A stretch of 64,000 bases of DNA from Microbacterium trichothecenolyticum (lineage in GTDB: Bacteria; Actinomycetota; Actinomycetes; Actinomycetales; Microbacteriaceae), in the NCBI RefSeq assembly GCF_030818955.1, contig NZ_JAUTBF010000001.1:1612001-1676000 (forward strand), read 5' to 3'. Made by a program: the position numbers and the translations under genes. The notes under the pieces were generated by a model that saw only the letters and a list, made by a program, of their open reading frames with translations, was not told where the DNA came from and ran no database searches. Shown here piece by piece: positions 35,125-50,655 of this stretch (position 1 is its first letter; each line of letters opens with the position of its first letter).

Positions 35125-35191
35125 GCATAAACGCGATCCGCGCGCATAAACGCGCTCTCCCCGCGTTTATGCGAGCAAACAGCGTTTATGC
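35125..35191. repeat. Structured repeat: two direct plus two inverted GCATAAACGCG copies
   Basis: GCATAAACGCG occurs at 35125 and 35144 (19 nt apart). Its reverse complement occurs at 35162 and, with one base changed (A for C at 35181), at 35181, again 19 nt apart. The inner pair closes on a 7-nt loop. The layout is that of the repeats flanking the nuclease gene at 39476, but the core sequence is different. It lies between convergent genes and could also terminate both. Confidence 0.8.
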
Positions 35192-39262: not shown

Positions 39263-39306
39263 CCCCTCCCCCCTCCCCCCTCCCCCCTCCCCCCTCCCCC
39301 TCCCCT
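39263..39306 (+). repeat. CCCCCCT heptamer microsatellite
   Basis: About six copies of a C-rich heptamer begin right after the mutase stop codon. The minus strand carries runs of five or six G separated by A and could form a G-quadruplex. The tract abuts the structured repeat at 39308. Confidence 0.85.
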
Positions 39307-39307
39307 T

Positions 39308-39375
39308 GTTTGGGGCGCGATCCTCCGTGTGGGGCGCGGAATTGGCCGCCCCAAACGGAAAGGTGTGCCCCAAAC
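39308..39375. repeat. Structured repeat upstream of the DUF559 gene (TTTGGGGCGCG family)
   Basis: GTTTGGGGCGCG at 39308 and GTGTGGGGCGCG at 39327 are 19 nt apart; CGCCCCAAAC at 39347 and TGCCCCAAAC at 39366 are also 19 nt apart and inverted. The outer copies pair over 9 bp. The inner copies pair around a 10-nt loop. Confidence 0.85.
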
Positions 39376-39415
39376 GCGGAGCGACAGCCCTCCACATCGT
39401 GAGCTGTGGCGTGGG

Positions 39416-39425
39416 TTGTCCACAA
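39416..39425 (+). promoter_or_regulatory. TTGTCCACAA motif upstream of the DUF559 gene
   Basis: Its TGTCCAC core lies 59 nt before ATG 39476. The same core is 58 nt before the start of the related gene at 49598. It resembles an actinobacterial DnaA box, but shared spacing suggests a regulator or replication-linked site of this gene family. Confidence 0.45.
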
Positions 39426-39463
39426 TGCGGGGCGGAGGGGCGGGGCGGACGGTTCGCGTGGGT

Positions 39464-39469
39464 CAGGGT
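39464..39469 (+). promoter_or_regulatory. Leaderless-type -10 box (CAGGGT) of the DUF559 gene
   Basis: CAGGGT ends 6 nt before ATG 39476. Confidence 0.4.
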
Positions 39470-39475
39470 GAGGAG

Positions 39476-40429
39476 ATGTCACCCCTCGACATCCCGCTCC
39501 TGCACCGTGCAGACCTCCTCGCGCAGGGAACCGACCATCACGGTCTCGACCGGCGCCTGCGCGCCGGGACGCTCGCGCGTGTGCGGCCCGGCGTCTACAT
39601 CGACCCGCGGCGAGCGGCGTCGTTCCGCCCCGAGGAGTGGATCATCGTGCGCGCCCGTGCGCTCGCCCGGGCGTGTTCTCGGCCGACCGTCTTCTCGCAC
39701 CAGACGGCCGCGGCCCTCCACGGTCTACCGGTGCTTCATCCCGGCGAGCGCGTACACATCACCCTCGACGAGCGTCGCCGGGGATCCGTGGCGGGCGCGG
39801 TGAGGCACCGGGGAGAGCTCTCCACGGATGACGTCGTGTCACGGTGCGGGCTGCACACGACGAGCCTCGCGCGAACGGTGGCGGACATCGCACGGACGGC
39901 TCCCTTCGATGAGGCGGTGTGCGCGCTCGACGGTGCCCTTCGCCAGGTGGCGGTCAGGGCGATCGGGTCGTACGACGAGACCGCGGCGGGCGCTTTCACG
40001 GCGGAATCCCTCGCCCTCGTGGAGCGTTCGTCCCACGGCAGGGCGAGGGCACGCAGAGCGATCGCCTTCGCGGATGGTCGGGCCCAGCTTCCCGGCGAGA
40101 GCATCAGCCGTATCCGCCTGCACGAGCTCGGATTCCGCGCCGTGCGCCTGCAGGTCGCGGTGACCGGTCCGTCGGCGAGCACGTACTTCGTGGACTTCGG
40201 CATCGACGAAGCGAAGGTCTGGGGCGAGTTCGACGGACGCACCAAGTACCTCGACGACGAGATGCGCGCGGGGCGCTCGACGGCCGACGTGCTGCTGACG
40301 GAGAAACGGCGCGAGGACTGGATCCGTGGCGTGACCGGACGCCCCGTCGTCCGCTGGGGCTGGGCGGACCTCCGTGACGCCGCCACGCTCGGAGCGCGTC
40401 TGTCGTCGTTCCACGTCGCGCTGCCGTGA
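39476..40429 (+). CDS. AbiEi-like / DUF559 (Vsr-fold) putative nuclease, copy A
   Basis: A 317-residue protein in two parts. Residues ~5-50 form a winged-helix of the AbiEi antitoxin type (HRADLLAQG, LRAGTLARVRPGVYID). Residues ~210-310 match the DUF559 layout, a Vsr/PD-(D/E)XK nuclease fold: GESISRIRLHELGF, TYFVDFGIDEAKVWGEFDG with the Asp and Glu expected to bind metal, then RTKYLDDE with a Lys. No AbiEii toxin gene is adjacent, so an abortive-infection pair is unlikely. The gene is bracketed by near-identical structured repeats (39308-39375 and 40438-40503), with G-rich tracts outside them. Nuclease activity is inferred from fold; the partner of the repeats is a hypothesis. Confidence 0.75.
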   Translation: MSPLDIPLLHRADLLAQGTDHHGLDRRLRAGTLARVRPGVYIDPRRAASFRPEEWIIVRARALARACSRPTVFSHQTAAALHGLPVLHPGERVHITLDERRRGSVAGAVRHRGELSTDDVVSRCGLHTTSLARTVADIARTAPFDEAVCALDGALRQVAVRAIGSYDETAAGAFTAESLALVERSSHGRARARRAIAFADGRAQLPGESISRIRLHELGFRAVRLQVAVTGPSASTYFVDFGIDEAKVWGEFDGRTKYLDDEMRAGRSTADVLLTEKRREDWIRGVTGRPVVRWGWADLRDAATLGARLSSFHVALP

Positions 40430-40437
40430 CGCCGCCG

Positions 40438-40503
40438 CTTGGGGCGCGCGATTCCGTTCGGGGCGCGGCATTCCCCGCCCCGAACGGACGATCACGCCCC
40501 AAC
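40438..40503. repeat. Structured repeat downstream of the DUF559 gene (TTTGGGGCGCG family)
   Basis: TTGGGGCGCG at 40439 and TTCGGGGCGCG at 40457 are followed by inverted GCCCCGAAC at 40477 and GCCCCAAC at 40496, 19 nt apart. The inner pair forms a 12-bp stem (CCGTTCGGGGCG/CGCCCCGAACGG) around a 10-nt loop. It is the same family as 39308-39375. Confidence 0.85.
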
Positions 40504-40506
40504 CCC

Positions 40507-40574
40507 GGGCGGGTGGGACGGGCGGGACGGGCGGGCGGGTGGGCGGGTGGGTGGGAGGGACGGGGAGGGAGGGG
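40507..40574 (+). repeat. G-rich tract next to the downstream structured repeat
   Basis: A run of GGGC, GGGT and GGGA units, so the plus strand could form a G-quadruplex. It mirrors the C-rich tract on the other side of copy A and ends just before the regulator gene stop. Confidence 0.75.
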
Positions 40575-49374: not shown

Positions 49375-49410
<36 letters not shown>

Positions 49411-49494
49411 GTCCCGCGTTCCGGACGAGCGTGACAACATGCGGTCGGCGGGACCCGATCCTGCGGGGATCGGCAGGAGGTATCCGGAGCGCGG
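49411..49494. repeat. Long-loop inverted repeat, unit 1 (GTCCCGCGCTCCGGA family)
   Basis: Left arm GTCCCGCGTTCCGGA (49411-49425), right arm TCCGGAGCGCGG (49483-49494), loop of 57 nt. The loop holds a 7-bp hairpin CCGATCC/GGATCGG (49455-49473). Confidence 0.8.
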
Positions 49495-49546: not shown

Positions 49547-49597
49547 TGCTTCTCGACGCAGAGTCGGCAAGACCTCATGTCCGACGACCCTGGACGG

Positions 49598-50488
49598 ATG
49601 CAAACCCGTTCCCCCCTCCCGGAAGCTCTTTCGACAAGCGCCCTGAGAGAGGCGGGCCTCACCAGGCGAGACATCTCGAACGCCGTGAGGCAGGGCCGCC
49701 TCATCCGCCTTCGTCTGGGGCGATACGCCCCCGAACACACCCCGGAAATCTTCGTCGACGCCGCACGGTGGGGCGGTCGCGTCGACTGCATCTCGTTGCT
49801 GGCACACCTCGGAGTCTTCGTTCACACGCATGACGGTCCGCACGTCCAGATCGATCGGCACGCGACGCGTTTGCCGCCGCGGCCCGCCCGCGTTCGTTGC
49901 CACTGGCGAACGTCGTCTGCGCCCGCCACGTCGCTGGCTGTCGAGGTGGAGGAGGCGTTGGCACAGGCGGTCCTGTGCCAACCGGCGCGGCATGCCATCG
50001 CCACGCTCGACAGCGCCTGGCATCTCGGCGTGGTGGATGTCGACGGCATCAACGAGGTGTTCCGGCGTCTGCCGCGCACGTTCCAGGTGCTGCGGACGCT
50101 GCTGGACCCTCGCAGTGAAGCAGGAGTCGAGACGCTCGTCAGACTGATCCTGCGCACGCTCGGTCATCGAGCCGAGTTGCAGGTCGTCATCGAGGGAGTG
50201 GGCAGGGTCGACCTCCTGGTGGACGGTTGGCTCATCGTGGAGTGCGACAGCCGACAGTTCCACTCCGGCTGGGAGTCTCACGTTCGCGACCGGCGCCGCG
50301 ACGCCGCGGCCCTGGCGCAGGGCTACTGCACGGTCCGCCTCCTCGCGGTAGACGTCCTCTCGCGCCCTGACGCCGTCCGCCTCCAGCTCCAGGACATCCT
50401 CGACCGCGGCCCGGCCGTCCCGCGCTCCGGAGGATCGGGGCGTCGTCCGCGAATCGACGCACGACCACGCCGCCCTACTTGGCTTTGA
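49598..50488 (+). CDS. AbiEi-like / DUF559 (Vsr-fold) putative nuclease, copy B
   Basis: A 296-residue relative of copy A. Residues ~10-45 are a winged-helix (LSTSALREAGLTRRDI, VRQGRLIRLRLGRYAP). Residues ~180-275 are the DUF559 nuclease region: VETLVRLILR, VGRVDLLVDGWLIVECDSRQFH with Asp and Glu as likely metal ligands, and RDRRRDAALAQG. The gene's 3' end runs into an inverted-repeat arm, so the last ~25 residues (PRSGGSGRRPR) are repeat-encoded and not conserved protein. ATG 49598 is preferred over ATG 49577 because GACCCT lies 6 nt upstream and TGTCCAC then sits as in copy A. No toxin partner is adjacent. Confidence 0.72.
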   Translation: MQTRSPLPEALSTSALREAGLTRRDISNAVRQGRLIRLRLGRYAPEHTPEIFVDAARWGGRVDCISLLAHLGVFVHTHDGPHVQIDRHATRLPPRPARVRCHWRTSSAPATSLAVEVEEALAQAVLCQPARHAIATLDSAWHLGVVDVDGINEVFRRLPRTFQVLRTLLDPRSEAGVETLVRLILRTLGHRAELQVVIEGVGRVDLLVDGWLIVECDSRQFHSGWESHVRDRRRDAAALAQGYCTVRLLAVDVLSRPDAVRLQLQDILDRGPAVPRSGGSGRRPRIDARPRRPTWL

Positions 50489-50502
50489 TCCGGAGCGCGG
50501 AC
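50417..50502. repeat. Long-loop inverted repeat, unit 2
   Basis: Left arm GTCCCGCGCTCCGGA (50417-50431) inside the end of DUF559 copy B, right arm TCCGGAGCGCGGAC (50489-50502), loop of 57 nt. A GCGTCG/CGACGC hairpin lies within the loop. Confidence 0.85.
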
Positions 50503-50567: not shown

Positions 50568-50655
50568 GGTCCCGCGCTCCGGAAGAACGCGGGCTCGCAG
50601 ACCCCTCACGCAAGACCCAAGCCGTTCAAGCGGTCGAGATCCGGAGCGCGGGACC
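50568..50655. repeat. Long-loop inverted repeat, unit 3
   Basis: A perfect 16-nt pair: GGTCCCGCGCTCCGGA (50568-50583) and TCCGGAGCGCGGGACC (50640-50655), loop of 56 nt. Same arms and loop length as units 1 and 2. It ends 33 nt before the adenosine deaminase stop. Confidence 0.9.

Follow-up and report, generated by a model that had tools for sequence, protein, structure and literature searches.

In the 64,000-nucleotide (nt) stretch of Microbacterium trichothecenolyticum DNA that we analysed (contig NZ_JAUTBF010000001.1; hereafter the window), a gene for a putative nuclease, gene A (39476–40429, forward strand; 317 amino acids), lies between two copies of a palindromic element, and such bracketing recurs around its relatives in other genomes. 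The upstream copy (39308–39377) consists of two boxes 19 nt apart followed by the same pair inverted, and the downstream copy (40436–40505) is of the same type. An initial annotation of this DNA had proposed that the gene is flanked on both sides by a matching element of about 66 nt, and our comparison confirms it: the two copies share 80% identity over 50 nt without a gap. Both are imperfect palindromes, and as single-stranded DNA they fold with −25.7 and −28.3 kcal/mol (z-scores of −5.15 and −5.24; 0 of 200 shuffled sequences folded as well). We call this form the GGGGC-type element, as each of its two inverted arms has a pair of GGGGC boxes with a period of 19 nt, making four boxes in all; GGGGCGCG is the box type that we put forward as the predicted target of the gene A protein. 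The frame of gene A ends at 40429 and, at its longest, opens at 39329, within the upstream element; following the family alignment, we took the ATG at 39476 as the start, and 98 nt separate it from the end of the upstream element.

The first ~200 residues of the gene A protein resemble an AbiEi antitoxin, i.e., a winged-helix DNA-binding domain followed by a second domain, while residues ~203–317 are predicted to fold as a Vsr-type PD-(D/E)XK nuclease (AlphaFold2 model with a predicted local distance difference test score, pLDDT, of 92). The AbiEi-type module was recognized by PADLOC (E 5.7e-18) and by comparison with structure 6y8q (E 1.8e-5). The C-terminal half combines the restriction-like fold with the conserved acidic and basic active-site residues of Vsr-type enzymes, and these putative catalytic residues are kept in nearly all of 133 family proteins. 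The fusion is thus seen in sequence profiles and conserved residues, and the structure matches agree. Pfam returned for gene A only AbiEi_4, under the cut-off, and a CSD match (E 0.072), with no match to DUF559 (PF04480) or MTES_1575 at E up to 1. Hence, the DUF559-type label of the initial annotation suits gene A by its predicted fold, in which the nuclease half becomes visible, but not by Pfam. No transposase was detected in the protein by Pfam, PADLOC or NCBIfam scans. The best explanation is that gene A belongs to a large AbiEi-Vsr fusion family in Actinomycetes, members of which (E 1e-25 or better) are present in 105 of 196 genomes drawn from the whole class.

To judge the bracketing among relatives, we combined a search of 59 Microbacterium genomes with the paralogues of the M. 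trichothecenolyticum genome itself and 80 named loci, which gave 155 loci with 137 distinct proteins, one of them not scorable. The 59-genome search yielded 84 places, of which 30 were included as loci, 41 were covered by 40 added regions, and 13 were left out (some of these being covered by the CATAAACGC orthologue comparison below). With a Smith-Waterman score of at least 20 counted as a match, the left and right flanks matched at 105 of the 136 scorable distinct loci, nearly all from Microbacterium, compared with 21 of 596 mismatched pairs. Where at least 20 kb of sequence was at hand, matching flanks were found at 42 of 49 genes, compared with none of 490 control positions of equal size within these loci (positions that are probably mostly coding), which supports the specificity of the bracketing for the family gene. 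The mismatched pairs form the fairer null, since the same kind of flank is used, and they give a value that is too high rather than too low, because pairs from one repeat clade are included. The flank matches are direct as well as inverted because the elements are palindromic. Moreover, exact 9-mer direct pairs at exactly 19 nt occur at 92 of 137 loci (0.9% of 343 control positions), with 27 of 137 having such pairs at 20 nt. Among the 83 GGGGCG-poor loci, 8-mer pairs were found at 19 nt in 61, at 18 nt in 12 and at 20 nt in 19.

The boxes differ between loci, and the differences follow the protein phylogeny. On a tree of 133 proteins, 82 of which have boxes on both sides, the boxes, which were derived automatically, fall into groups that follow the clades: the A clade has GGGGC, and other clades have GAGCGGGCAC, CGAGTGCACG, CGAGACCCC, CGAGATGACC and further boxes. 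For the 66 proteins in repeat clusters of at least two members (9 box types), parsimony required 14 changes of box type, compared with 30–40 in 200 shuffles; single linkage had merged some distinct CGAG-type boxes into a cluster of 25. The idea that each protein has its own repeat, as in co-diverging pairs of repetitive extragenic palindromes (REPs) and REP-associated tyrosine transposases (RAYTs), was therefore borne out in that repeat family tracks protein clade, and the repeats are probably cognate. Box sharing is rare among distant relatives (0–2% of pairs at 20–50% protein identity) and common among closer ones (44–74% at 50–80%), with a leap from 2% at 40–50% identity to 44% at 50–60%. 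As a lead only, many boxes of the non-GGGGC clades (L026–L184) seem to open with CGAG or CGAA, the remainder being variable; our script orients boxes towards CGA.

GGGGC-type elements are also dispersed. A strict four-box pattern gave 15 matches per strand in the M. trichothecenolyticum genome (G000), and none for a reversed-pattern control. Across the 59 genomes the strict pattern was matched in 21, with up to 57 matches on one strand, while the reversed control found nothing except single matches in two genomes. When 13 copies from the own genome were compared, two of which flank gene A, the boxes were invariant and the spacers variable; their consensus is palindromic and begins GTTTGGGGCGCG. 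Away from family genes, the copies that we inspected are solo or tandem. Five orthologous sites lack the solo element L129:863, and one GGGGC-type copy is common to L113 and L114, where L200 and L112 have an unrelated repeat. The latter site lies after the phosphomannomutase gene, and the repeat in L112 and L200 is another palindrome, GGTCGTTGAGCGAGCGAGGAACGAGCGAGACGAAACG. At L190 and L191, we also noted tandem arrays of the GGGGC-type element, resembling bacterial interspersed mosaic elements (BIMEs), directly 3' of an A-type gene; they have a period of ~75–79 nt and sit 1.1–1.5 kb after the phosphomannomutase gene.

The distribution of repeats over the 59 genomes accompanies that of the genes. 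Of the 18 genomes with an A-clade gene (that of G004 is broken and owes its assignment to identity), 15 have GGGGC-type repeats, compared with 6 of the 41 genomes that lack the gene (Fisher 7e-7); here and below the counts include gene-flanking copies and the tests ignore relatedness between the genomes. A second family, with CATAAACGC boxes, is found in 9 genomes, all within the 11 that have an orthologue of the own-genome paralogue C1:3413835-3414857 with 56% identity or more (Fisher 4e-9), and the box stands on both sides of 8 of 10 whole orthologues compared with 0 of 19 more distant relatives. The GAGCGGGCAC repeat is restricted to exactly 3 genomes, those whose gene it brackets, each with copies away from the gene. 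Of the 5 genomes that have a gene flanked by the CGAGTGCACG box, 4 carry the repeat, as do 6 of the remaining 54 (Fisher 0.002).

Within genomes, the dispersed copies resemble those beside the gene. We compared 33 dispersed copies from 5 genomes for which gene-flanking copies were listed, using only the spacer positions that the search pattern leaves free: identity to gene-flanking copies was 0.63 within the own genome and 0.41 between genomes, 27 of the 33 found their best match in the own genome, and 0 of 5000 permutations reached the observed value. This likeness would fit copying or conversion. The gene itself keeps its place. It stands immediately after the phosphomannomutase gene in G000, G019, G023, G026 and, by coordinates, G049, and lies 0.9–12.3 kb from that gene in the remaining 13 of the 18 A-clade genomes. 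With protein A as the query, no phage records and 2 plasmid records were returned. Together with the steady locus, this points to a chromosomal, largely vertically inherited gene in the A clade.

Outside the genus, we examined 57 loci from the class-wide sample, chosen by hand, one per genome and high scores first rather than at random; the flanks match at 46 of them, compared with 5 of 300 mismatched pairs. One flank copy was folded at each of the 26 outside loci that were displayed, and most of these copies, though not all, form a long hairpin. Inverted flank matches at L253, L254, L258, L262 and L263 contain a ATGATCACGTTC-like motif, resembling a conserved element end.

From the bracketing, box spacing, dispersal, solo presence or absence, co-variation of box and protein, co-occurrence, within-genome likeness and residue conservation, all of which are directly seen, we infer box binding, cutting and copying. 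We postulate, with a probability of roughly 0.55 and on the strength of sequence comparisons, that gene A encodes a nuclease that sustains and probably also spreads a palindrome family of its own, in a manner resembling RAYTs and their REPINs (REP doublets forming hairpins). The protein of each family clade would recognize its own short DNA box, the AbiEi module binding the boxes as dimers. The boxes make up a palindromic element, which at most Microbacterium-type loci consists of a pair exactly 19 nt apart and an inverted repetition of that pair. The Vsr-type nuclease would then nick or cut at or near the element, perhaps on a hairpin extruded at the replication fork, and repair would copy or convert the element at other sites. 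The element population could thereby persist, co-evolving with a largely vertically inherited gene. We advance a wider proposal with somewhat less assurance, holding it a little short of an even chance: that AbiEi-Vsr nucleases across Actinomycetes, with a palindromic recognition array peculiar to each clade, copy their repeats to other chromosomal sites via break- or nick-induced repair and so form a transposase-free, independently evolved counterpart of the REPIN/RAYT system, with ever-changing specificity.

The likeness to RAYT/REP is broad: according to excerpts of two studies (PMC2817692, PMC8049555), there too the gene lies between palindromic repeats, the repeats are dispersed and partly tandem, their type follows phylogeny, the locus is steady, and the gene is hardly plasmid-borne. 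However, the gene A protein joins an AbiEi-like binder to a Vsr-type PD-(D/E)XK nuclease and is not an IS200/IS605-type tyrosine transposase, so the chemistry must differ because the enzyme differs. The repeats differ as well, in the 19-nt box period of most Microbacterium-type loci and in their number: by our strict patterns a genome holds up to tens of copies, while REPs mostly number more than 100 (excerpts of PMC2817692). One end of most REPs bears a GTAG or CGTC tag (excerpts of PMC3733652); neither was found in the consensus of the 13 own-genome copies, that is, for the clade A element. Gene A differs from the AbiEi type IV antitoxins (Streptococcus agalactiae AbiEi, 6y8q; Mycobacterium tuberculosis Rv2827c, 1zel) in several respects: its AbiEi-like part is fused to a nuclease, its putative cognate repeats are dispersed, and no AbiEii/DUF1814 toxin gene adjoins gene A, whose neighbours at this locus are the phosphomannomutase gene and a convergent gene for a PRD/EIIA phosphotransferase system (PTS) regulator. 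From Vsr/DUF559/MTES_1575 endonucleases and the homing endonuclease I-Bth0305I, gene A is set apart by the negative Pfam result, by its tie to cognate palindromes, and by its surroundings, neither of its two neighbours being a mismatch-repair gene. Thus, gene A is neither a RAYT nor, at this locus, part of an AbiE toxin-antitoxin pair. Among the listed open-access papers, none links DUF559, AbiEi-nuclease fusions or Microbacterium to dispersed palindromes. The partnership between nuclease and repeats appears to be new in kind, yet much like RAYT/REP as judged from the DNA.

Several observations weigh against this interpretation. Pairing covariation in the own-genome palindrome was not clearly above that of column shuffles, 57 of 500 of which scored as high, so we regard the boxes, not the hairpin, as the conserved feature. 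The coding status of the 13 own copies depends on the settings: under strict settings, a reading-frame heuristic scores none of the 13 as coding, though it overlooks gene A as well, and with less strict settings the number is 5 or 7. Outside the genus, the 19-nt period is weak, with pairs at 19 nt in 8 of 57 loci and at 20 nt in 10. Gene and repeat do not always go together either. The six genomes with GGGGC-type repeats and no A-clade gene include G057, which has 38 strict matches and may possibly have lost the gene while the repeats survived; conversely, G024, G030 and G051 have the gene and no strict match. Near their CATAAACGC orthologues, G015 and G057 have no such box within 400 nt, even though a few repeats exist in these genomes; in G052 the boxes stand beside the gene, yet the strict double-box pattern finds nothing. 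Six genomes have CGAGTGCACG-type repeats (in G004, 16 half-elements) but no gene with this box was detected in them, while G017 has a CGAGTGCACG-box gene but no strict repeat. According to excerpts of one study, REPINs also occur in Escherichia coli genomes that lack a RAYT (PMC8049555), and the orphan families found here resemble them in this respect. Concerning the within-genome likeness, the dispersed copies of G050 match the flanking copies of G000 (0.62) slightly better than their own (0.58), and the effect could stem partly or wholly from shared descent.

Other explanations have to be set beside that of a nuclease maintaining its own repeats. The gene A protein could be a DNA-binding autoregulator like AbiEi antitoxins, with the upstream element as its operator, the downstream element as a hairpin terminator or second operator, the dispersed copies as its regulon, and the nuclease serving defence or repair. 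Its AbiEi half does match the structures of AbiEi and Rv2827c, both of which autoregulate through inverted repeats in their promoters (excerpts of PMC7319586), and the 98-nt distance between the upstream element and the start codon would suit an operator. Nevertheless, elements flank both sides of the gene, form the downstream tandem arrays of L190 and L191 and, as solo copies, vary between species, and the putative nuclease residues are conserved almost throughout the family; we therefore regard a purely regulatory role as unlikely. It also seems improbable that the gene and the elements make up a classical mobile unit, with the elements as its ends and the solo elements as derivatives akin to miniature inverted-repeat transposable elements (MITEs). 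In every one of the 18 sampled genomes with an A-clade gene, it is found no more than ~12 kb from the phosphomannomutase gene, the own genome holds no near-identical second copy of gene A (other matches are at most 35% identical), and the database query with protein A gave two plasmid records and no phage.

The same constancy of position, together with the strong hairpins, would be in keeping with elements that serve the host chromosome as REPs do (supercoiling, mRNA ends, repair), the nuclease being a structure-specific repair or processing enzyme that does not spread them. We give this account little credence, since the repeats diverge so fast that clades carry different families, and most sampled genomes of the genus lack a given family by the strict pattern. 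Finally, a GC-rich genome with simple G/C tracts beside the elements might be suspected of producing such patterns by chance or through its composition. The scarcity of matches among mismatched flank pairs (21 of 596), their absence from the 490 control positions and the reversed patterns, which gave 0 in all genomes but two with single matches, led us to reject this; the AT-rich CATAAACGC box family behaves alike, and the residual probability is negligible.

To our knowledge, the spread and persistence of short palindromic repeats have been attributed to one kind of partner, the RAYT transposases. If the proposed role of the AbiEi-Vsr nucleases is true, repeat-partner systems would have arisen at least twice, one of them in an unrelated, nuclease-bearing family with the same signature, and very many proteins annotated as AbiEi antitoxin or as hypothetical would acquire a role. 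The family would also offer many natural pairs of protein and short box from which rules of DNA recognition might be learned, and the 19-nt box spacing renders the binding proposal directly testable.

The window holds a second member of the family, gene B (49577–50488, forward strand, start codon assumed), a distant paralogue 24% identical to gene A that combines AbiEi_4 with an MTES_1575/DUF559-like nuclease. All its Pfam scores are under the cut-off (DUF559, 15.1 bits against a gathering cut-off of 20.6). Its probable start is 49577; its longest frame opens at 49409 and would include the first element of the locus. The layout is unlike that of locus A: TCCGGAGCGCG-like boxes form terminal inverted pairs ~68 nt apart around a dissimilar, non-conserved middle. 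Such elements lie at 49415–49493, at 50421–50499, where the element overlaps the last codons of gene B, and at 50573–50650. The earlier statement that the two paralogues each sit between matching repeats, which differ between the loci, holds as to the difference in repeats, but locus B has three copies, not two. A gene B orthologue in G015 (88% identical) is bracketed by B-type elements as well; three other B-type sites that we fetched have no B gene.

Searching the own genome with a hidden Markov model (HMM) of the family gave 10 matches, namely A, B and several more paralogues, the four weakest being left out of the statistics. The paralogue C1:3413835-3414857 is bracketed by CATAAACGC elements, and the half-element of this third family has 31 forward and 26 reverse matches in the genome; one solo dispersed element with CATAAACGC boxes and a 19-nt period, paired with that paralogue, lies in the window at 35126–35190 (G000:C1:1647126-1647190). 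Another paralogue, near C1:3300941, is flanked by GTTGAGTGTCC elements. For the weaker paralogues L030, L032 and L033, the two flanks did not match convincingly (scores of 19, 12 and 12), and the own-genome paralogue in L004 passes the DUF559 cut-off with 25.8 bits.

Tracts rich in G lie outside both elements of locus A on opposite strands, just as the initial annotation described: the upstream tract (39263–39304) is C-rich on the forward and G-rich on the reverse strand, and the downstream tract (40507–40573) is G-rich on the forward strand. Quadruplex-like tracts are scarcely enriched at the loci outside the genus (2 of 57). Among the 137 family genes, they were found in the left flank on the C strand at 26 (4 of 343 control positions), in the left flank on the G strand also at 26 (9 of 343), and in the right flank on the G strand at 36 (3 of 343).
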